Shown in pieces: positions 20,392 through 29,432 of a stretch of DNA of 64,000 nucleotides (position 1 is its first letter; the number at the start of each line of letters is the position of its first letter). This stretch comes from Hymenobacter monticola (GTDB lineage: Bacteria; Bacteroidota; Bacteroidia; Cytophagales; Hymenobacteraceae), in the NCBI RefSeq assembly GCF_022811645.1, contig NZ_CP094534.1, positions 4,030,001 to 4,094,000 of the forward strand, written 5' to 3'. Under the pieces are notes generated by a model that made no database searches, had not been told where the DNA came from, and saw only the letters and a program-made list of their open reading frames with translations. Both the position numbers and the translations under genes were made by a program.

Positions 20392-20420
20392 AAAAAGCCC
20401 GGCCCCACGCCGGGCTTTTT
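20392..20420 (+). terminator. trp attenuator terminator
   Basis: A perfect 12-bp stem (AAAAAGCCCGGC and complement) and a CCCAC loop end in five T. It lies 28 bases after the leader-peptide stop and 34 bases before the trpE ATG. It is conditional on leader translation by inference. Confidence 0.92.
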
Positions 20421-20454
20421 GCATTTTAACCCTTACCCGCACGAGCTAAAGCTT

Positions 20455-21879
20455 ATGCCCCAACTCACCACCCACCACCGCCGCCTGCTGGCCGACACCG
20501 TGACCCCGGTGGGCCTGTACCTGCGCCTGCGCGACCAATATTCCAACTGCCTGCTGCTGGAAAGCGCCGATTACCACGGGCAGCAAAATGCCTTCAGTTA
20601 CCTTGTGTGCGAGCCGCTGGCCACGTTTGAGCTGCGCCGGGGCGGCGAGCTGCGGCAGCAACTGCCCGGCGGCCCCGCAACCAGTGAGCACCTGGCCAAC
20701 CCCCGCGAGGCGCTGGGTAAGCTGCGTGCGTTCGCCGCAGCTTTCGCGCCCGATGAAACGGCTGCCCGCCTGCCTTTCATCAGCACCGGGCTGTTTGGCT
20801 ACATCGGCTACGAGGCGGTGCAAAGCTTTGAGGATGTGCAGTTGGCAGTCGGCAAGGTGCCGGCGGGTGACATTCCGCTCATTCGCTACGGTGTGTACCG
20901 CTACGTCATCGCTTTCAACCACTTTCGGCAGGAGCTGCACCTGTTTTCGCACGGCGTAGCGGGCGAGGAAAAAGTGCAGGACGACGGCCTCGACCGGCTG
21001 GAGAACCTGGTGCGCAATCCCAGTGTGCCCAGTTTTGGCTTTGCCACGGCGGGGGAGGAGCAAACCAACCAAACCGATGCCGAGTTTCTGGCGCGGCTGG
21101 CGCAGGGGCAGGCCCACTGCCGCCGCGGCGATGTGTTTCAGATTGTGCTGTCGCGTCGATTCCAGCAGGGTTTTTCGGGCGATGAATTCAACGTGTACCG
21201 CGCCCTGCGCTCCATCAACCCCTCGCCCTACCTGTTCTATTTCGACTACGGCGACTACAAAATCTTCGGCTCTTCGCCCGAGGCGCAGGTACTGGTGCAG
21301 GGGCGCGAAGCCAGCCTGTTCCCGATAGCCGGCACCTACCGCCGCACCGGCGACGACGCGGCCGATGCCGCCGCGGCCCAGCGCCTCGCCGCCGACCCCA
21401 AGGAAAACGCCGAGCACGTGATGCTGGTAGACCTGGCCCGCAATGACCTGGCCCGCCACGGCACCAACGTGCAGGTGCGCACGCTGCGCGAAATCCAGTT
21501 TTACTCGCACGTCATTCACCTGGTCAGCAAAGTCACGGCCGACCTCGACCACGGCTCTGACACCCTGCAGGTGGTGGCCGACACTTTCCCGGCCGGCACG
21601 CTGTCGGGCGCGCCCAAGCACCGCGCCATCCAGCTAATCGACGGGCTCGAACCCACCGCCCGGGGCTATTACGGCGGCTGCCTGGGCCACCTGGGCTTCG
21701 ACGGCAGCTTCAACCACGCCATCATGATACGCTCGTTTCTGAGCACCGGCAACCAGCTGTATTTCCAGGCCGGCGCGGGCGTAGTGGCGGCGTCCAATGT
21801 GCAGTCGGAGCTGGAAGAGGTACACCACAAGCTGGGGGCCCTGCGCGCTGCTTTGCGCGCTGCCGAAGAAGTTAAATAG
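20455..21879 (+). CDS. trpE: Anthranilate synthase component I
   Basis: This 474-residue chorismate-binding enzyme makes anthranilate from chorismate with ammonia supplied by TrpG. The N-terminal domain includes LLLESADYHGQQNAFSYLVC, with the LLES motif linked to Trp feedback inhibition. The catalytic domain contains RGDVFQIVLSRRFQ, INPSPYLFYFDYGD, GSSPEAQVLVQGREASLFPI, the ENAEHVMLVDLARNDLAR motif and FPAGTLSGAPKHRAIQLID. I chose the ATG at 20455. A TTG frame opening at 20419 would lie within the terminator stem. It is the first structural gene of the operon, 3 bases before trpG. Confidence 0.97.
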   Translation: MPQLTTHHRRLLADTVTPVGLYLRLRDQYSNCLLLESADYHGQQNAFSYLVCEPLATFELRRGGELRQQLPGGPATSEHLANPREALGKLRAFAAAFAPDETAARLPFISTGLFGYIGYEAVQSFEDVQLAVGKVPAGDIPLIRYGVYRYVIAFNHFRQELHLFSHGVAGEEKVQDDGLDRLENLVRNPSVPSFGFATAGEEQTNQTDAEFLARLAQGQAHCRRGDVFQIVLSRRFQQGFSGDEFNVYRALRSINPSPYLFYFDYGDYKIFGSSPEAQVLVQGREASLFPIAGTYRRTGDDAADAAAAQRLAADPKENAEHVMLVDLARNDLARHGTNVQVRTLREIQFYSHVIHLVSKVTADLDHGSDTLQVVADTFPAGTLSGAPKHRAIQLIDGLEPTARGYYGGCLGHLGFDGSFNHAIMIRSFLSTGNQLYFQAGAGVVAASNVQSELEEVHHKLGALRAALRAAEEVK

Positions 21880-21882
21880 CTC

Positions 21883-22458
21883 ATGGCCATGAAAATCCTC
21901 GTTCTCGATAACTACGATTCCTTCACCTACAACCTCGTGCACCTGCAGCGCGAGTTGGGCCATGGTCCGAACCTGACCGTGGTACGCAACGACCAGCTGA
22001 CGCTCGATGCGGTGGCGGCCTACGATGCCATCTTGCTGTCGCCCGGCCCGGGCGTGCCGGCCGAAGCGGGGCTGATGCCGGCCATCATCCGGCAATACGC
22101 GCCCACCAAGCGGATTCTGGGCGTGTGCCTGGGCCACCAGGGCCTGGCCGAGAGCTTTGGGGCCGAGTTGTATAACATTCCCGCTGTGCTGCACGGGGTG
22201 GCTAATGAAGCCGAGGTAACCGTAGCGGATGAGCGGCTCTTCGCCGGCTTGCCCGAAAAGTTTCAGGTGGGGCGCTACCACTCCTGGGCGGTGCGGCCCG
22301 AGTCGATGCCGTCCACGCTGGAAGTGACGGCCCGCGACACCAACGGCGAGGTGCTGGCCTTCCGCCACCGCGAGTTTGACGTGCGCGGCGTGCAGTTTCA
22401 CCCCGAAAGCATCCTGACCGAGCACGGCGCCCAGATGCTGGAGAACTGGCTGTCTTAG
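21883..22458 (+). CDS. trpG: Anthranilate synthase component II (glutamine amidotransferase)
   Basis: This 191-residue class I glutaminase supplies ammonia to TrpE. It starts MKILVLDNYDSFTYNLVHL. It has the oxyanion strand LLSPGPGVPAEAGL, nucleophile C82 in ILGVCLGHQGLAESFG, and the His-Glu pair in VQFHPESILTEHG. The start is tightly coupled to trpE (3-base gap). It is a stand-alone protein, not fused to TrpE or TrpD. Either ATG, at 21883 or 21889, could initiate. Confidence 0.97.
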   Translation: MAMKILVLDNYDSFTYNLVHLQRELGHGPNLTVVRNDQLTLDAVAAYDAILLSPGPGVPAEAGLMPAIIRQYAPTKRILGVCLGHQGLAESFGAELYNIPAVLHGVANEAEVTVADERLFAGLPEKFQVGRYHSWAVRPESMPSTLEVTARDTNGEVLAFRHREFDVRGVQFHPESILTEHGAQMLENWLS

Positions 22459-22543
22459 GCTTCAAGCCACAAGTTATCTGCCATCTGAATCAGTTCCGAA
22501 ATAAGCGCTTGCAGCCTGTAGCCCGAAGCTTGCAGCTCCAATC

Positions 22544-23539
22544 ATGAAAGAAATTCTCACCAAACTTTTCGACCACCAGCCGCTCACCCACGCCGAGGCC
22601 CACGCCGCCATGCGCCAGCTGGGCGAGGGCGGCGCCAACCCGGCTGAAACCGCCGCTTTCCTGGCCGTGTACCGCATGCGGCCCATTACGGTGGCCGAAC
22701 TGGCGGGCTTCCGGCAGGCGCTGCTCGACCTCAGCCGCGACCCGCAGCTGGGCACCCACGAAGTGCTCGACATTGTGGGCACGGGCGGCGACGGTAAAAA
22801 CACGCTCAACATCTCCACGCTGGCCTGTTTTGTGGTGGCCGGGGCGGGGGTGAAGGTGGCCAAACACGGCAACTTCGGCGTGTCGTCGGTGTCGGGCGCG
22901 TCGAACGTGCTGGCGCATTTCGGCTACGACTTTGAGGCCGGCTCCGACCAGCTGCGGCGGCAGCTTGACCGGGCAGGCATCTGCTTTTTGCACGCGCCGG
23001 CCTTTCACCCAGCCATGCGGCACGCCGGGCCGGTGCGGCGCGAGCTGGGGCTGCGCACCTTTTTCAACATCCTCGGCCCGTTGGTGAACCCGGCCCGGCC
23101 GGCGGCGCAATTGCTGGGCGTGTTCAGCCTGGAGCTGCAGCGCCTCTACCACTACCTCATGCAGCCCACCGGCACCCGCTACGCCGTGGTGCACGCCCTC
23201 GATGGCTACGACGAGCTGGCCCTCACCGGCCCGGCCAAGGTAGTTTCTTCCTTCGAGGGCGAGCGCCTGCTGACGCCCGAAACCCTGGGCCTGACCCTTT
23301 GCTCGGCTACCGACCTGGCCGGTGGCAGCACCGTGGAGGCAGCCGCCGAGCTGTTTTTTGACGTACTGTCGGGCCAAAGCACGGCGGCCCAGCGCAACGT
23401 CGTCACGGCCAATGCGGGGCTGGCGCTGCAATGCGCCAGCCCCGGCCTCACCTGGGAAGATGCGCTGGGCCGAAGCCGCGAGTCGCTGGACTCGGGCGCC
23501 GCAAAAAAGGCATTTGAGACGATGCTTTCCATCAAGTAA
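22544..23539 (+). CDS. trpD: Anthranilate phosphoribosyltransferase
   Basis: This 331-residue enzyme joins anthranilate to PRPP, the second step of Trp synthesis. Its motifs are DIVGTGGDGKNTLNISTLA (PRPP and Mg binding), VKVAKHGNFGVSSVSGASNV, FLHAPAFHPAMRHAGPVR and RTFFNILGPLVNPARP. The length fits the family. The 85 bases after trpG hold a short repetitive stretch (CTTGCAGCCTGTAGCCCGAA) but no gene. Confidence 0.97.
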   Translation: MKEILTKLFDHQPLTHAEAHAAMRQLGEGGANPAETAAFLAVYRMRPITVAELAGFRQALLDLSRDPQLGTHEVLDIVGTGGDGKNTLNISTLACFVVAGAGVKVAKHGNFGVSSVSGASNVLAHFGYDFEAGSDQLRRQLDRAGICFLHAPAFHPAMRHAGPVRRELGLRTFFNILGPLVNPARPAAQLLGVFSLELQRLYHYLMQPTGTRYAVVHALDGYDELALTGPAKVVSSFEGERLLTPETLGLTLCSATDLAGGSTVEAAAELFFDVLSGQSTAAQRNVVTANAGLALQCASPGLTWEDALGRSRESLDSGAAKKAFETMLSIK

Positions 23540-23587
23540 AAAGCAGGATGACAAGTTGCTTGTCCATTCCTCAATTCCATTAAAGTA

Positions 23588-24409
23588 ATGTCCACCATCC
23601 TCGATACCATCGTAGCCCACAAGCGGAAAGAAGTAGCTGCTCGCCGCGAGCTGGTGCCCGTGAAGCTGCTGGAAAGCAGCCTGTTTTTCAACTCGCAGCC
23701 TTTGTCGCTGCGCCACTACCTGACGCGCTCGAACAGCAGCGGCCTCATCGCCGAGTTCAAGCGCAGGTCGCCCTCCAAAGGCTGGATAAACCGCTACGCG
23801 CCGGTGGAGCGCACCACGCTGGGCTACATGCAGGCCGGAGCCGCCGCGCTATCCATTCTAACCGATGCCGAGTTTTTTGGCGGGAAGAACGAGGACCTGA
23901 CCACGGCCCGGCGCTTCAACTTCTGCCCCATTCTGCGCAAAGATTTTGTGGTGGATGAGTACCAGATTCTGGAGGCCAAAAGCATCGGGGCCGATGCCGT
24001 GCTGCTGATTGCGGCCGTGCTCACGCCGTCGGAAATCGACTCGCTGGGGCGGCTGGCCCGCTCGCTGGGCCTAGAAGTGCTGCTCGAAGTGCACAACGCC
24101 GAAGAATTGGCCCGCTCGGCCAACGCCGACGCCGTGAGCTTGATTGGCGTCAACAACCGCAACCTGCACGACTTCAGCCTGAGCCTGAATACCTCGCTTG
24201 AGCTGGCCGCCGCCATTCCCGAAGAATTTGTGAAAGTTTCGGAAAGCGGAATTTCCAGCGCCCAAGCTATTGGCCAGCTACGCGAAGCGGGCTACCGGGG
24301 CTTTCTGCTGGGCGAAGTCTTCATGCGAGAGGCCCGGCCCGAGCGGGCCTGCGCCGCGCTGGTGCAGGAGCTGGGAATCTTAGCGCCAAAGGTTTCCGTT
24401 GGAGGCTGA
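23588..24409 (+). CDS. trpC: Indole-3-glycerol phosphate synthase
   Basis: This 273-residue TIM-barrel enzyme performs the fourth step. It begins with TILDTIVAHKRKEVAARREL. The catalytic residues lie in LIAEFKRRSPSKGWIN, LSILTDAEFFGGKNEDL, FCPILRKDFVVDEYQI, GLEVLLEVHNAEEL, LIGVNNRNLHDF and VKVSESGISSAQAIGQL. It is separate from trpF, unlike the E. coli fusion. It lies 48 bases after trpD and 18 bases before trpF. Confidence 0.97.
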   Translation: MSTILDTIVAHKRKEVAARRELVPVKLLESSLFFNSQPLSLRHYLTRSNSSGLIAEFKRRSPSKGWINRYAPVERTTLGYMQAGAAALSILTDAEFFGGKNEDLTTARRFNFCPILRKDFVVDEYQILEAKSIGADAVLLIAAVLTPSEIDSLGRLARSLGLEVLLEVHNAEELARSANADAVSLIGVNNRNLHDFSLSLNTSLELAAAIPEEFVKVSESGISSAQAIGQLREAGYRGFLLGEVFMREARPERACAALVQELGILAPKVSVGG

Positions 24410-24427
24410 ACCCCAACGGCCTCAAGT

Positions 24428-25099
24428 ATGAACCCTTCCCCTAAACCCCTGCTCGTGAAAGTGTGCGGCATGCGCGAATCGGCCAACATTGAAGCCGTGG
24501 CCGACCTGCGCCCCGACTTTCTTGGGTTCATCTTTCACCCGGGCTCGGCGCGCTACGCGGGCACGGCCTTGCAGCCCGAATTGCTGCGGGCGCTGCCCGA
24601 GAGTGTGCGCAAGATTGGGGTGTTCGTGGACGCCGGCACGGTGCCCATCTTGACCACCCTCGCGGCTTTTGGGCTCGATGGCGCACAGCTTCACGGGCAG
24701 GAAACGCCCGCCCAGTGCGCCGAGCTGCGCAATGCCGGGGTGCTGGTTATCAAAACGTTTAGCGTAGGCGACTCGCTCGATTTAGAAGCTTTGCGGCCTT
24801 ATGAAGGCACTTGCGATTATTACTTATTCGATACCAAAGGGCTGGCGCCCGGCGGCAACGGCATCGCCTTCGACTGGAAGCTGCTGCGCGATTACAACTT
24901 CAGGACGCCTTATCTACTAGCCGGCGGCATTGGGCCCGAAAACATTGCGACACTCACGGCCCTGCACTTGCCTGGCCTGGTCGGCGTCGACCTCAACAGT
25001 CGCTTCGAAACCGCGCCCGGCCGCAAGGACGCCGCCCGGCTGGCTCCGGCGCTGGCCCAGCTGCGGCGCGGAGCAGCGCCCCGCCCGCAGGCCGTTTAA
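24428..25099 (+). CDS. trpF: Phosphoribosylanthranilate isomerase
   Basis: This 223-residue TIM-barrel enzyme carries out the third step of Trp synthesis. It has the catalytic Cys in LLVKVCGMRESANIEA, then FLGFIFHPGSARYAG, IGVFVDAG, DGAQLHGQETPAQC and the catalytic Asp in YYLFDTKGLAPGGNGIAFDW. The phosphate site is YLLAGGIGPENIATL followed by GVDLNSRFETAPGRKDAA. It lies between trpC and trpB in the operon. Confidence 0.96.
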   Translation: MNPSPKPLLVKVCGMRESANIEAVADLRPDFLGFIFHPGSARYAGTALQPELLRALPESVRKIGVFVDAGTVPILTTLAAFGLDGAQLHGQETPAQCAELRNAGVLVIKTFSVGDSLDLEALRPYEGTCDYYLFDTKGLAPGGNGIAFDWKLLRDYNFRTPYLLAGGIGPENIATLTALHLPGLVGVDLNSRFETAPGRKDAARLAPALAQLRRGAAPRPQAV

Positions 25100-25126
25100 C
25101 TCACCTTTGCACACCCTCCCCAACGC

Positions 25127-26320
<1,194 letters not shown>

Positions 26321-26323
26321 AAG

Positions 26324-26414
26324 TTACCGCAGAGGGCGCAGAAGAGAACGCAGAGGTTCGCAGAAGAACGTCCTCCGCGAACCTCTGCGTTCTCTTCTGC
26401 GCCCTCTGCGGTAA
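26324..26414. repeat. Perfect 38-bp palindrome between trpB and trpA
   Basis: Perfect inverted arms at 26324-26361 and 26377-26414 (starting TTACCGCAGAGGGCGCAGAA) flank a 15-base loop. The element begins 3 bases after the trpB stop and ends 14 bases before the trpA start, so it is transcribed within the operon as a very stable hairpin. No T run follows it. Confidence 0.95.
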
Positions 26415-26428
26415 TTTCCGTCAAAGCA

Positions 26429-27226
26429 ATGAATAGAATAGCCCAAGCCTTTGCCAGCAAGAAAAACCTGCTGAATACCTACTTCACTGCTGGCTATCCC
26501 AGTCTGCACGACACCATTCCCTTGGCGAAATCCTTGGTCGAAGCCGGGGCAGATATTCTGGAAATCGGCATGCCGTTCTCCGACCCGTTGGCCGATGGCC
26601 CGGTCATTCAGGGCAGCAACTCCGTGGCGCTGGCCAATGGCATGAACCTGCCGGTGCTGTTTGAGCAACTGAAGGAACTGCGCATCGCCGTGCCCACCAC
26701 GCCCGTGCTGCTGATGGGCTACCTCAACCCGGTGATGCAGTTCGGCATTGAAAACTTCCTCCAACGCGCCGCCGAAGCCGGCATCGATGGCCTCATTCTG
26801 CCCGATTTGCCGCTCGATGAATACGAGGAGCAGTACCACGCGCTTTTCCAGCAATACGGGCTGAAAGCCGTTTTTCTCATCACCCCGCAAACCTCGGAGG
26901 CCCGCATTCGTCGGCTCGATGCGCTGTCGGACGCTTTTCTATACCTCGTATCCGGCCCCGGCACCACGGGCGGAACCACCTTGCCCGATGCCGAAGCCCA
27001 GCAACAGTACTTCGAGCGCCTCGCCGGCATGAACCTCAATTCTCCGCGCCTCATTGGCTTCGGTATTGCCGACAAAGCCGGCTTCGACCGCGCCTGCCAA
27101 TATGCCGATGGCGCCATTATTGGCTCCGCCCTCATTCGGGCCCTAGACGGGGCAGAGGATGCACCCGCGGCGGCGGCCCGGTTTGTGCAGGGCATCACCT
27201 CACCCTCTGACCCTCTTTCCAAATAA
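26429..27226 (+). CDS. trpA: Tryptophan synthase alpha chain
   Basis: This 265-residue enzyme cleaves indole-3-glycerol phosphate. Its motifs are NTYFTAGYPSLHDTIPLAKS, the catalytic Glu in DILEIGMPFSDPLADGPVIQ, PVLLMGYLNPVMQFG, the catalytic Asp in GLILPDLPLDEYEEQ, and the phosphate site in YLVSGPGTTGGT and GFGIADKAGFD. The last residues (TSPSDPLSK) are encoded by the left arm of an intergenic palindrome (27197-27330). The element therefore appears to have replaced the native C-terminus. Confidence 0.97.
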   Translation: MNRIAQAFASKKNLLNTYFTAGYPSLHDTIPLAKSLVEAGADILEIGMPFSDPLADGPVIQGSNSVALANGMNLPVLFEQLKELRIAVPTTPVLLMGYLNPVMQFGIENFLQRAAEAGIDGLILPDLPLDEYEEQYHALFQQYGLKAVFLITPQTSEARIRRLDALSDAFLYLVSGPGTTGGTTLPDAEAQQQYFERLAGMNLNSPRLIGFGIADKAGFDRACQYADGAIIGSALIRALDGAEDAPAAAARFVQGITSPSDPLSK

Positions 27227-27330
27227 GGATAGGACACCGGCCCCGCGCTAACCCTAAAAACCAGAAAAGATAAATCGTCTTCACGGACCGGTGCCCCCTC
27301 TTTTTTGGAGAGGGGGTCAGGGGGTGAGGT
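27197..27330. repeat. Palindrome overlapping the trpA 3' end (CCTCACCCTCTGACC family)
   Basis: Imperfect 24-base inverted arms lie at 27197-27220 (ACCTCACCCTCTGACCCTCT) and 27307-27330, separated by 86 bases. The left arm codes for the trpA C-terminal tail. The element ends 17 bases before the DAHP synthase start. Confidence 0.85.
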
Positions 27331-27347
27331 CAACGCCAGAACAATCC

Positions 27348-28352
27348 ATGATAATTCAACTCGAAAAAAACGCTTCGGTGCCCGCCATCACCGAGCACCT
27401 GAAGCAGCAGGGCTACAAGGCCACCGAAGTCACCACCCAGCACGCGCACTACCTGGTGGCCATTGGCAAGCAGGAATTTGACATCCGCACCATCGGCCAG
27501 CTGCCCGGCGTGCGCGACGTGCACCGCGTGAGCGACGACTACAAGCTGGTGAGCCGCAAGTGGCGCGTGCAGCCCTCCGTGCTCGACCTCGGCGACGGCG
27601 TGACGATAGGCGAGGGCTCGCTGGCATTGTGCGCCGGCCCGTGCAGCATTGAGAGCGAGGCCCAGATGGAAAAGGTGATGGCCCACCTGCTCGAAAACGA
27701 CGTGCGGCTGATGCGCGGCGGCGTGTTCAAGCCCCGCTCATCGCCCTACGCTTTCCGCGGCCTGGGCATGGATGGGCTGAAGGAGTTCCACCGCATGGCG
27801 CGTGAGCGGGGCATCAAAATCGTGACCGAGGTGATGCAAGTGTCGCAGGTGGAGGAAATGCACGACTACGTGGACGTGTTCCAGGTGGGCGCCCGCAACA
27901 CGCAAAACTTCAACCTGCTCGACGCCCTGGGCGGCGTCGACAAGCCGGTGCTGCTGAAGCGCGGCATCTCGGGCACCATCGAAGAGCTGCTGTCGTCGGC
28001 CGAATACGTGTTTTCGGGCGGCAACGAGAAGTTGATTCTCTGCGAGCGTGGCATTCGCACCTTCGAAACAGCCAGCCGCAATACCTTGGATTTGAACGCG
28101 GTGCCCATCCTTAAAGCCAAAAGCCACCTGCCGGTCATCGTCGACCCTTCGCACGGCATTGGCATTCGGGAGTTTGTGCCCCAGATGGCGCTGGCCGGCG
28201 TGCTGGCCGGGGCCGACGGCATTGTGTACGAAACCCACGAAACCCCCGAAACGGCTGCCTCAGACGGTGCCCAGACGCTGGACTTTGACGAATCGGCCCG
28301 GCTGATTCGCAACCTGCGGCGCGTGTACCAGCTGCGCGGCGAACTGGAGTAG
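27348..28352 (+). CDS. aroF: 3-deoxy-7-phosphoheptulonate (DAHP) synthase
   Basis: This 334-residue enzyme commits carbon to the shikimate pathway. An N-terminal ferredoxin/ACT-like domain (residues 1 to about 75) is typical of type I-beta enzymes and may sense aromatic amino acids. The catalytic barrel shows ALCAGPCSIESEAQM, LMRGGVFKPRSSPYAFRGLG, IVTEVMQVSQVEEM, VFQVGARNTQNFNLLDALG, PVLLKRGISGTIEELLSSAE and VDPSHGIGIREFVP. The start is the ATG at 27348. It follows trpA in the same direction without a terminator, so it is likely part of the attenuated operon. Confidence 0.95.
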   Translation: MIIQLEKNASVPAITEHLKQQGYKATEVTTQHAHYLVAIGKQEFDIRTIGQLPGVRDVHRVSDDYKLVSRKWRVQPSVLDLGDGVTIGEGSLALCAGPCSIESEAQMEKVMAHLLENDVRLMRGGVFKPRSSPYAFRGLGMDGLKEFHRMARERGIKIVTEVMQVSQVEEMHDYVDVFQVGARNTQNFNLLDALGGVDKPVLLKRGISGTIEELLSSAEYVFSGGNEKLILCERGIRTFETASRNTLDLNAVPILKAKSHLPVIVDPSHGIGIREFVPQMALAGVLAGADGIVYETHETPETAASDGAQTLDFDESARLIRNLRRVYQLRGELE

Positions 28353-28376: not shown

Positions 28377-28406
28377 TTGCATTTCCGAAATCATTTTCTA
28401 CATTCG
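28377..28406 (+). promoter_or_regulatory. Promoter upstream of the phenylalanine hydroxylase leader
   Basis: TTG (28377-28379), 19 bases, then TACATTCG (28399-28406) matches the Bacteroidota promoter with one mismatch in the -7 box. The leader ATG at 28415 lies only 8 bases downstream, giving a nearly leaderless message. Confidence 0.6.
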
Positions 28407-28414
28407 TCCCACAC

Positions 28415-28513
28415 ATGCGCCACCAGTTCGTCAATTGCTTTAATTACCTGATGACCCCCTGCAAACAGGGCGGACGCGGGCTGCGATTGGCGCTACCAGA
28501 AGGAAAGGCATGA
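28415..28513 (+). CDS. Candidate Phe/Tyr leader peptide upstream of phenylalanine hydroxylase
   Basis: This 32-codon ORF begins MRHQFVNCFNYL, with two Phe and one Tyr within seven residues, and ends in EGKA before TGA at 28511. It lies between a promoter and an intrinsic terminator (28539-28575) ahead of the phenylalanine 4-hydroxylase gene. The aromatic codons suggest translation-dependent attenuation by Phe or Tyr supply. They are about 70 bases upstream of the antiterminator arm (28517-28525), farther than in textbook attenuators. Leader function is therefore an inference. Confidence 0.5.
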   Translation: MRHQFVNCFNYLMTPCKQGGRGLRLALPEGKA

Positions 28514-28538
28514 AAACCGACTTTCTCTTGTAACCTTC

Positions 28539-28575
28539 AAAAGCCCGAATCCGAAAGGAAGTCGGGCTTTTTTTT
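28539..28575 (+). terminator. Attenuator-type terminator with competing antiterminator
   Basis: Terminator stem AAAAGCCCGA (28539-28548) pairs with TCGGGCTTTT (28562-28571), and further T follow. An alternative 9-bp pairing, CCGACTTTC (28517-28525) with GGAAGTCGG (28557-28565), shares bases 28562-28565 with the terminator. The two structures are therefore mutually exclusive, as expected for a regulated attenuator before the hydroxylase start at 28623. Confidence 0.8.
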
Positions 28576-28622
28576 GGCCCGCCTCGTCCTTTCTCACACC
28601 CAACTACCTTGTATTACTAGCT

Positions 28623-29333
28623 ATGTTCACCAAACTCACTCCCACCGCCAACGAGGACCAGCGCACCTGGAAAGTGCTGTTCGACCGCCAGACTGCCCTG
28701 CTGCACCGCCGGGCGGCCCCGGCGTTCAACCAGGGCCTGGCCCGGCTGGGTTATCGGCGCGAGTTTATCCCCGACATCGCGGAGCTGAGCGCCGTGGTGC
28801 AGGAGGAAACCGGCTGGCAGCTGGCCCCGGTGGGCCGGCCGTTCGAGCCCGCCGCCTTTTTCGCCCTGTTGGCCAAGCGTAAGTTTCCGATTGTGACACG
28901 CATCCGGTCCATGCACAACTTCGATTTCAGCCCGGAGCCGGACCTGTTCCACGACCTGTTCGGCCACGTGCCCATGCTGCTCGATGAAGGCCTGGCCAAC
29001 TTCCTGCACGAGCTGGGCCAAGCCTATCAGGCGCAGCCCAAAGGCTCGCCGGCCCGGGAACAATTGTGGGCGCTCTACTTTTTCACGGCCGAGTTTGGCC
29101 TGGTGCAGCACGAGGATAAGCCGTTGCTCTACGGCGCGGGCCTGCTGTCGTCGGCCGGCGAAATTCACCACTGCGTGAACGAGAACACCCCCCGCCCGGT
29201 GTTCGACCTGGCCACGGTGCTGCGTACGCCCGTGACCGGCGCCCGCTACCAAAACCAATACTTCGTGCTGCCCGCCTGGGAGCAGCTCACCGAGTGCGTG
29301 GAAGAGCTGGCCGGCCTATTGGCGGGGCGGTAA
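28623..29333 (+). CDS. phhA: Phenylalanine 4-hydroxylase
   Basis: This 236-residue pterin-dependent mono-oxygenase converts Phe to Tyr. The iron ligands are visible: H110 and H115 in FHDLFGHVPML and E157 in FFTAEFGLV. Further family motifs are FPIVTRIRSMHNFDFSPEPD and the active-site SSAGEIHHCVN. The length fits the compact bacterial form with no N-terminal regulatory domain. It sits next to the trp/aroF block but has its own promoter, leader and terminator, so it is separately regulated. It may supply Tyr as well as degrade Phe. Confidence 0.95.
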   Translation: MFTKLTPTANEDQRTWKVLFDRQTALLHRRAAPAFNQGLARLGYRREFIPDIAELSAVVQEETGWQLAPVGRPFEPAAFFALLAKRKFPIVTRIRSMHNFDFSPEPDLFHDLFGHVPMLLDEGLANFLHELGQAYQAQPKGSPAREQLWALYFFTAEFGLVQHEDKPLLYGAGLLSSAGEIHHCVNENTPRPVFDLATVLRTPVTGARYQNQYFVLPAWEQLTECVEELAGLLAGR

Positions 29334-29339
29334 CTAGAA

Positions 29340-29432
29340 AACGCCTGTCATCCTGAGCGCAGCGAGGGACCTTTTCACGTCAGGTTTTCTAGCGTGAAAA
29401 GGTCCTTCGCTGCGCTCAGGATGACAGGCGTT
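29340..29432. repeat. Palindrome, GTCATCCTGAGCGCAGCGA family
   Basis: Forty-base inverted arms (29340-29379 and 29393-29432) have one mismatch and a 13-base loop. The arm starts AACGCCTGTCATCCTGAGCG. It sits between convergent genes, phenylalanine hydroxylase and DUF962. Related elements are at 40959, 45061, 51576, 52121 and 58341. Confidence 0.92.

Follow-up and report, generated by a model that had tools for sequence, protein, structure and literature searches.

In enterobacteria, the operons trp, his and phe are controlled by ribosome-mediated attenuators. Attenuation of the pyrBI type works through coupling of RNA polymerase and ribosome over a leader ORF without a regulatory codon run, and in the mgtCBR leader of Salmonella the ORFs are tied to separate stem-loops. 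The part of the mgtCBR report that deals with this leader describes tandem attenuators with two short ORFs in one leader (PMC3641672). For amino acid genes of Bacteroidota, attenuation has been suggested at amino acid operons of Flavobacterium psychrophilum (in the pertinent section of PMC9723704), and putative attenuators have been listed at tyrA operons, including the pheA-hisHb-aroA-aroQ-tyrA operon of Bacteroides thetaiotaomicron (Table 7 of PMC1173090). Where it treats phhA, the latter paper places this gene under the activator PhhR and not under attenuation (PMC1173090). In the open-access literature searched, we found no attenuator of a phenylalanine hydroxylase.

The window analysed here is a 64,000-nucleotide stretch of the Hymenobacter monticola genome, in which a DAHP synthase gene and a hydroxylase gene are separated by a leader. 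A preliminary description had put this leader forward as a possible Phe/Tyr-responsive attenuator. Attenuation of the hydroxylase is well supported by comparison with relatives, that is, by the frame of the leader ORF (ORF1), the pairing of strands 1:2, 2:3 and 3:4, the place of the leader before the gene and its recurrence in three genera. We therefore regard the leader as a probable (roughly 0.78) ribosome-coupled transcription attenuator of the hydroxylase gene. The names PAH-X, PAH-Y and 'window type' were coined in this analysis, and g4, g5 and g6 stand for genera.

The hydroxylase gene and its neighbourhood

The gene downstream of the leader, PAH-X (28623..29333, forward strand), encodes a biopterin-dependent aromatic amino acid hydroxylase (PF00351, 145.6 bits) that is 92% identical to its best named match, from H. 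properus. Its top NCBIfam model is phenylalanine 4-monooxygenase (NF008877), with a score of 210.8 bits that falls under the cut-off of 247. The gene on the 5' side of the leader encodes DAHP synthase (PF00793) and belongs to a co-directional series at 20419-28352 that also includes the trp genes for anthranilate synthase I, phosphoribosyltransferase, IGPS and TrpA. On the 3' side of PAH-X lies a long inverted repeat (29338-29432, with CCTGTCATCCTGAGCGCAGCGA). L230 and L233 have similar repeats in the space separating their tandem hydroxylases, and the repeat may be a palindromic element that recurs in the genus.

Distribution of the leader

Hydroxylase matches were found in 119 of the 120 Hymenobacter genomes. 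The leader set consists of 101 distinct Hymenobacter leaders upstream of the PAH-X ortholog group, the window's included, with L072 added by hand to 100 collected by script. As copies of L024 and L025, L057 and L059 were left out, L081 was cut back to its second ATG, and the minus-strand loci L046, L047 and L056 were read separately, the other minus-strand loci repeating ones already read. Tests on 51 leaders refer to those less than 90% identical. In 17 of the 120 genomes the hydroxylases are only ∼ 40–45% identical, and five leaders of this kind (L175-L179) were read, as were 20 second paralogs among the 40 genomes with two hydroxylase matches.

At E ≤ 0.01, a covariance model built on the 51 leaders had matches in 126 of the family's 204 genomes; in ten of the 120 Hymenobacter genomes it had none. 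Matches immediately 5' of a hydroxylase gene were found in all eight g6 genomes, in three g4 genomes and in five divergent Hymenobacter, with three genera (g1, g4 and g6) in which the element has this position. The weakest matches, such as L171, L174 and L180, lie beside no hydroxylase and are likely due to chance. One genome (G004) carries, ∼ 2.6 kb upstream of the intact copy, a degenerate second copy of the leader with a GTG start (L173, 150-304, E = 1.3e-7), which is followed by a short hydroxylase-like remnant.

The DAHP synthase gene that precedes the leader in the window might suggest that the terminator described below is simply the ordinary terminator of that gene, with a constitutive hydroxylase and a leader devoid of any regulatory role. 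A promoter box and ORF1 intervene, however, some relatives (e.g. L063, L066 and L069) show by eye no such gene end within 400 nt, and the element stays with the hydroxylase across three genera, all of which makes this explanation extremely improbable.

Promoter and leader reading frame

The consensus-like promoter of the preliminary description holds as a Bacteroidota-type site and not as a sigma-70 promoter, since a sigma-70 scan of the window found none. The site is formed, on the forward strand, by TTG at 28377-28379, a spacer of 19 nt and TACATTCG at 28399-28406, which ends 8 nt 5' of the ATG of ORF1. A TAnnTTYG box lies 4–8 nt 5' of the ATG in 98 of the 101 leaders, with L058, L062 and L121 lacking a pattern match; the Bacteroidota consensus is given as TAnnTTTG in PMC7366714. 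Transcription would start at ∼ 28412-28415 and yield a nearly leaderless message. In Bacteroides, ∼ 3.7% of the 5' UTRs are reported to be shorter than 10 nt, leaderless messages being rare in the phylum (PMC7366714), and 5.5% of messages are leaderless in F. psychrophilum (PMC9723704).

The 32-codon leader ORF noted earlier is indeed present at 28415..28513 of the forward strand (ORF1, MRHQFVNCFNYLMTPCKQGGRGLRLALPEGKA followed by a stop) and covers both strands of the 1:2 hairpin. Between its ATG and the GGG of strand 2 there are 60 nt in 32 leaders, 63 nt in 60 and 66 nt in eight, which is a multiple of three in all 100 aligned leaders; from strand 2 to strand 3 the distance takes 14 different lengths, spread over all three frames. 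Within codons 2–16 of the 51 leaders, stops interrupt frame 1 in 48 leaders and frame 2 in 27, the open state of frame 0 being a consequence of how the leaders were chosen. Up to strand 2, the pN/pS of ORF1 is 0.67, 0.73 and 0.64 in three clades vs. 0.86–1.15 off frame, and after strand 2 it is 1.04, 0.85 and 0.37 (values from unweighted pairs, kinship ignored). No codon beyond the start is fixed among the leaders, and past strand 2 the clades are separated by a 1-nt gap that alters the frame and the C-terminus. Judged by these comparisons, selection acts on the frame of ORF1, which is probably translated, and keeps its peptide only loosely. The stop codon that separates strands 1 and 2 in attenuators of the trp type is absent, as ORF1 reads through strand 2.

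Alternative RNA stems

The predicted intrinsic terminator (3:4, 28539..28575, forward strand, −17.9 kcal/mol) lies between the leader ORF and the gene, as in trp-type attenuators; it pairs 28539-28548 with 28562-28571 and, in its inner part, 28550-28552 with 28557-28559, and has a run of eight T at 28568-28575. Its cores, GCCCG and CGGG, are invariant in the 51-row alignment. The antiterminator (2:3) joins strand 2 (28472..28482, overlapping P1b) to strand 3 (28542..28552, overlapping the 5' arm of the terminator), both on the forward strand, and at least 8 of its 11 pairs are kept in 89 of 100 leaders. The 1:2 hairpin (28429..28492, forward strand) comprises P1a (28429-28438/28483-28492), P1b (28447-28450/28477-28480) and P2 (28457-28461/28466-28470). 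Pairings 1:2, 2:3 and 3:4 are thus mutually exclusive, as in the trp type, P1a by itself being weak. Folded without strand 4, the window forms 2:3; with strand 4 it forms 3:4.

Of the two competing hairpins in the preliminary description, whose coordinates are exact, the terminator is retained, and so is the principle of alternative pairing, but through another stem. Formation of the antiterminator named there (28517-28525/28557-28565) is possible in the window, at −12.0 kcal/mol, but this stem was rejected as the switch, at least 8 of its 9 pairs being present in only three of 100 leaders, the window and two relatives. The earlier worry that the distance between codons and switch is unusually long falls away because the conserved strand 2 lies inside ORF1.

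For P2 and 2:3, the paired share and the covariation score were reached by no more than 3 of 500 shuffled alignments and by none of the slid versions. Paired cells make up 84.0% in 2:3 vs. 81.8% in shuffles (0 of 500 as high) and 22–52% in slid versions, and 83.2% in P2 vs. 75.8% in shuffles (0 of 500 as high); in P2, 40 cells are changed on both sides vs. 16.7 in shuffles (again 0 of 500). Other measures discriminate less. Pairs with changes on both sides were matched by 183 (P2) and 156 (2:3) of 500 shuffles and equalled or exceeded by slid versions, further pair types were equalled by 31 (P2) and 15 (2:3) of 500, and the count of 2:3 cells changed on both sides was reached in 22 of 500 shuffles, the version slid by −3 having 12 vs. 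10. With all 100 rows, RNAalifold recovered only the terminator from the untrimmed alignment, and P2 and 2:3 from its trimmed parts.

P1a alone is unsupported on the MAFFT alignment, where its covariation score was reached by 125 of 500 shuffles; we think that this alignment misaligns P1a. Because of this failure we ran a strand-swap test, in which native combinations of strand 1 and strand 2 folded better than swapped ones by a mean of 2.9 kcal/mol (Wilcoxon p = 3.7e-7, a guide only, as the leaders are related). In single folds, which have no null model, pairing of strands 1 and 2 is seen in 50 of the 51 leaders and P1a forms in all 51.

Taken by itself, the window gives a weak test against chance: its fold has a z-score of −1.57, with 14 of 200 shuffles folding as well, and a terminator scan found three sites vs. 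4.3 in shuffles. The case rests on the relatives. Covariation of the long-range stems, together with the lack of an obvious regulatory codon, would also be compatible with a small-molecule riboswitch over which an open frame extends by coincidence. Such a riboswitch should neither hold its frame strictly as far as strand 2, while the other two frames are often stopped, nor have Tyr runs in the leaders of paralogous genes (see below), and few positions are invariant outside strands 2–4 and the start. In Rfam 15, including the T-box and riboswitch families, the window has no match at the gathering score and four below it (best E 0.18). We consider a riboswitch very unlikely.

A second short ORF

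In the window, ORF1 is followed by a mini-ORF (ORF2, MKTDFLL and a stop; 28510..28533, forward strand), which overlaps the ORF1 stop (ATGA) and ends 9 nt 5' of the GCCCG of strand 3. An ATG mini-ORF of 4–9 codons is present in 41 of the 51 Hymenobacter window-type leaders (81 of all 101) vs. 4.5% of dinucleotide shuffles. If NTG starts are allowed, the count rises to 90 of 101; we prefer the ATG-only count, which comes with shuffles. The ORF2 stop lies 8–15 nt 5' of GCCCG in 40 of the 41 leaders, and 11–13 nt in 32. Among other window-type leaders, ORF2 is found in all five divergent Hymenobacter, in none of the eight from g6 and in one of the 16 from g4; it is missing in ten of the 51 Hymenobacter leaders and in all 18 Tyr-run PAH-Y leaders. 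ORF2 may fill the role of the stop between strands 1 and 2.

The leaders L079, L107 and L108 are alike, and by eye the usual ORF2 stop is missing in them. Their genomes (G055, G017 and G002, respectively) are the three that are > 90% complete and have no 4-hydroxyphenylpyruvate dioxygenase (HPPD) match over the cut-off.

Conservation of both frames, and a Leu content of ORF2 of 47.5% (87 of 183 codons past the first) vs. 18% in shuffles, could mean that the ORF1 or ORF2 peptide is itself functional or arrests the ribosome, the stems being secondary. The weak constraint on the ORF1 peptide speaks against this, as does the shift of its frame and C-terminus between clades past strand 2, and we judge a functional peptide to be quite unlikely.

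Codon content of the window-type leaders

In the simplest version of Phe/Tyr control, the ribosome would stall at F5, F9 or Y11 of ORF1 for want of charged Phe- or Tyr-tRNA. These codons of the window lie in the right stretch, given that the Tyr runs of sister leaders fall at about codons 8–15, and 80 of the 101 leaders have at least one Phe or Tyr within codons 2–16. The other 21 have none there, however, and 11 have none in the whole of ORF1. Phe and Tyr together account for 56 of 765 codons at positions 2–16 (7.3%; Phe 5.4%, Tyr 2.0%), which is no clear enrichment over 15 genes of the window (Phe 4.4%, Tyr 3.4%). The combination of F5, F9 and Y11 is found in the window and L001 only, two consecutive Tyr codons occur in none of the 101 ORF1, and none of 75 PAH-X upstreams (the L046-L128 set) has at least four Tyr within nine codons. 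Strand 1 accordingly lacks the series of cognate codons that marks it in trp-type attenuators, and Phe and Tyr find no support as regulatory codons of the window type, being neither universal nor clearly enriched. Plain Phe/Tyr attenuation of PAH-X thus appears unlikely.

The alignment across relatives proposed in the preliminary description therefore gave a divided answer, with the ORF and the alternative stems conserved and the Phe/Tyr codons not. Its suggestion that the enzyme is controlled by the supply of Phe or Tyr finds no support in the codons of the window leader and fits the paralogous leaders with Tyr runs.

A Cys codon, at a shifting position, is present in 122 of 130 window-type leaders (within codons 2–16 in 94 of 101, 8 of 8 from g6 and 5 of 5 from divergent Hymenobacter; within codons 2–18 in 15 of 16 from g4), and Cys makes up 0.7% of codons in the 15 window genes. 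Arg, Asn and Leu are likewise nearly universal (101, 101 and 99 of 101 leaders). In codons 2–16 of the 51 leaders, Glu, Gly and Trp are missing and Asp occurs once; therefore, base composition shapes the leader codons, and the Cys pattern is to be taken as a lead, not a result. The excess of the rare codon CTA (45% of leader Leu codons vs. 4%) may also be an effect of base composition.

Leaders of paralogous hydroxylases

Among the second Hymenobacter paralogs (PAH-Y), 17 of the 20 read have a leader with a Tyr run, e.g. MLLFTSRYYYAATYYAPLRSGAAAAYARN followed by a stop. A weaker run (RYYRHY) is seen in L245, and the second paralogs L246 and L248 have upstreams without a Tyr-run leader, which may reflect leader loss or rearrangement. 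Genus g5 has a match in 42 of 50 genomes, and all 30 loci read there have a leader ORF of 26–61 codons (46–61 in 28 of them) with at least four Tyr in nine codons. This count allows ORFs of up to 70 codons; the strict definition (four Tyr in nine codons of an ATG ORF of 12–50 codons), which underlies the counts for PAH-Y, g4 and other families, gives 14 of 30. Three g4 leaders contain YYYY or YYYYY, and outside this family five of the 20 loci read in the order have Tyr-run leaders. As controls, 569 kb of Hymenobacter strand sequence contained no Tyr-run ORF of up to 70 codons, and 310 kb of g4/g5 flanks contained two, both being the leader of a tandem neighbour. All six Tyr-run leaders that were folded have a 1:2 hairpin over the ORF (less clear in L239 and L247) and a terminator, and all six form 2:3 when strand 1 is omitted.

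In the hydroxylase tree (63 rows), a single branch (100/99) splits 27 rows from all 36 window-type rows. On the 27-row side, 21 have Tyr-run leaders; the exceptions are five rows from other families and L275, which groups with the Tyr-run rows though its own upstream (L248) lacks the run. Two g4 genomes carry both kinds of leader in tandem. By this comparison, leader type follows the hydroxylase gene tree, and Tyr control would fit the paralogs. The tree has no outgroup root, and either leader type may have arisen first.

The prephenate dehydrogenase domain PF02153 (TyrA) scores over the cut-off in 112 of the 120 Hymenobacter genomes, one of them (G006) by a 28.9-bit match only, which leaves 111 with a good match, and HPPD does so in 114; the HPPD step of Tyr breakdown is thus general in Hymenobacter. 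PAH as the sole Tyr route of the genus is ruled out by the TyrA count, and because of both counts PAH-X need not serve Tyr making. A second hydroxylase match was found in eight of the nine genomes without a good TyrA (G001, G003, G006, G022, G059, G087, G096, G097 and G117, of which G096 and G097 are 81% complete) vs. 32 of the 111 others (p = 6e-4, kinship ignored).

Proposed mechanism

Under the attenuation that we propose, transcription would begin about at the ATG of ORF1, and strands 1 and 2, both within ORF1, would if undisturbed make one long imperfect hairpin early. With 1:2 formed, strand 3 would pair with strand 4 and transcription would terminate ahead of PAH-X. A ribosome slowed on strand 1, at about codons 5–15, would leave strand 2 free to pair with strand 3, so that the gene is read. 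Having finished ORF1, the ribosome may restart at ORF2 and stop just 5' of strand 3; taking the size of the ribosome footprint, it would there hinder 2:3 more than 3:4 and so favour termination. As Tyr runs are missing from the PAH-X branch, the slowing must come from something other than Tyr: possibly other codons, most often Cys, the Leu-rich ORF2, or the general speed of translation.

This suggests, tentatively and with the balance of likelihood against it, that the hydroxylase has two branches, one under a Tyr-run attenuator and one, the window's, in which the same RNA switch reads a non-aromatic signal, so that the enzyme converting Phe to Tyr would be coupled to sulfur, leucine or the general state of translation. 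If true, one attenuator architecture would have two specificities on paralogous genes, side by side in several genomes, it would become possible to test whether the signal is set by the codon run, and Tyr-controlled hydroxylases would be predicted to be a Tyr-making route in the order.

Comparison with known attenuators

With the trp, his and phe attenuators of enterobacteria the window leader has in common the short leader ORF, the alternative 1:2, 2:3 and 3:4 pairings and the terminator before the gene. It differs from them in the lack of a cognate codon run, in an ORF1 that extends over strand 2, in its presumed nearly leaderless start, in the second mini-ORF and in its hydroxylase target. 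The codon run is missing, and so is a stop that would separate strands 1 and 2; for this reason we refrain from classing it as a Phe/Tyr attenuator. The pyrBI type likewise has no regulatory codon run but lacks a 1:2/2:3 switch of the window kind, and mgtCBR of Salmonella shares the two short ORFs in one leader, its sequence and genes being unrelated. The attenuators listed at tyrA operons (Table 7 of PMC1173090) share the aromatic amino acid pathway and the phylum and differ in the gene. The Tyr-run leaders (of PAH-Y, g5, three g4 loci and five loci from other families) have the same enzyme family as their target; the ORFs of PAH-Y and g4 have 25–29 codons, and the six folded share with the window a 1:2 hairpin across the ORF, the 2:3 pairing and the terminator. 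Unlike the window type, they have 3–11 Tyr codons, those of PAH-Y are without ORF2, and the ORFs of g5 are mostly longer.
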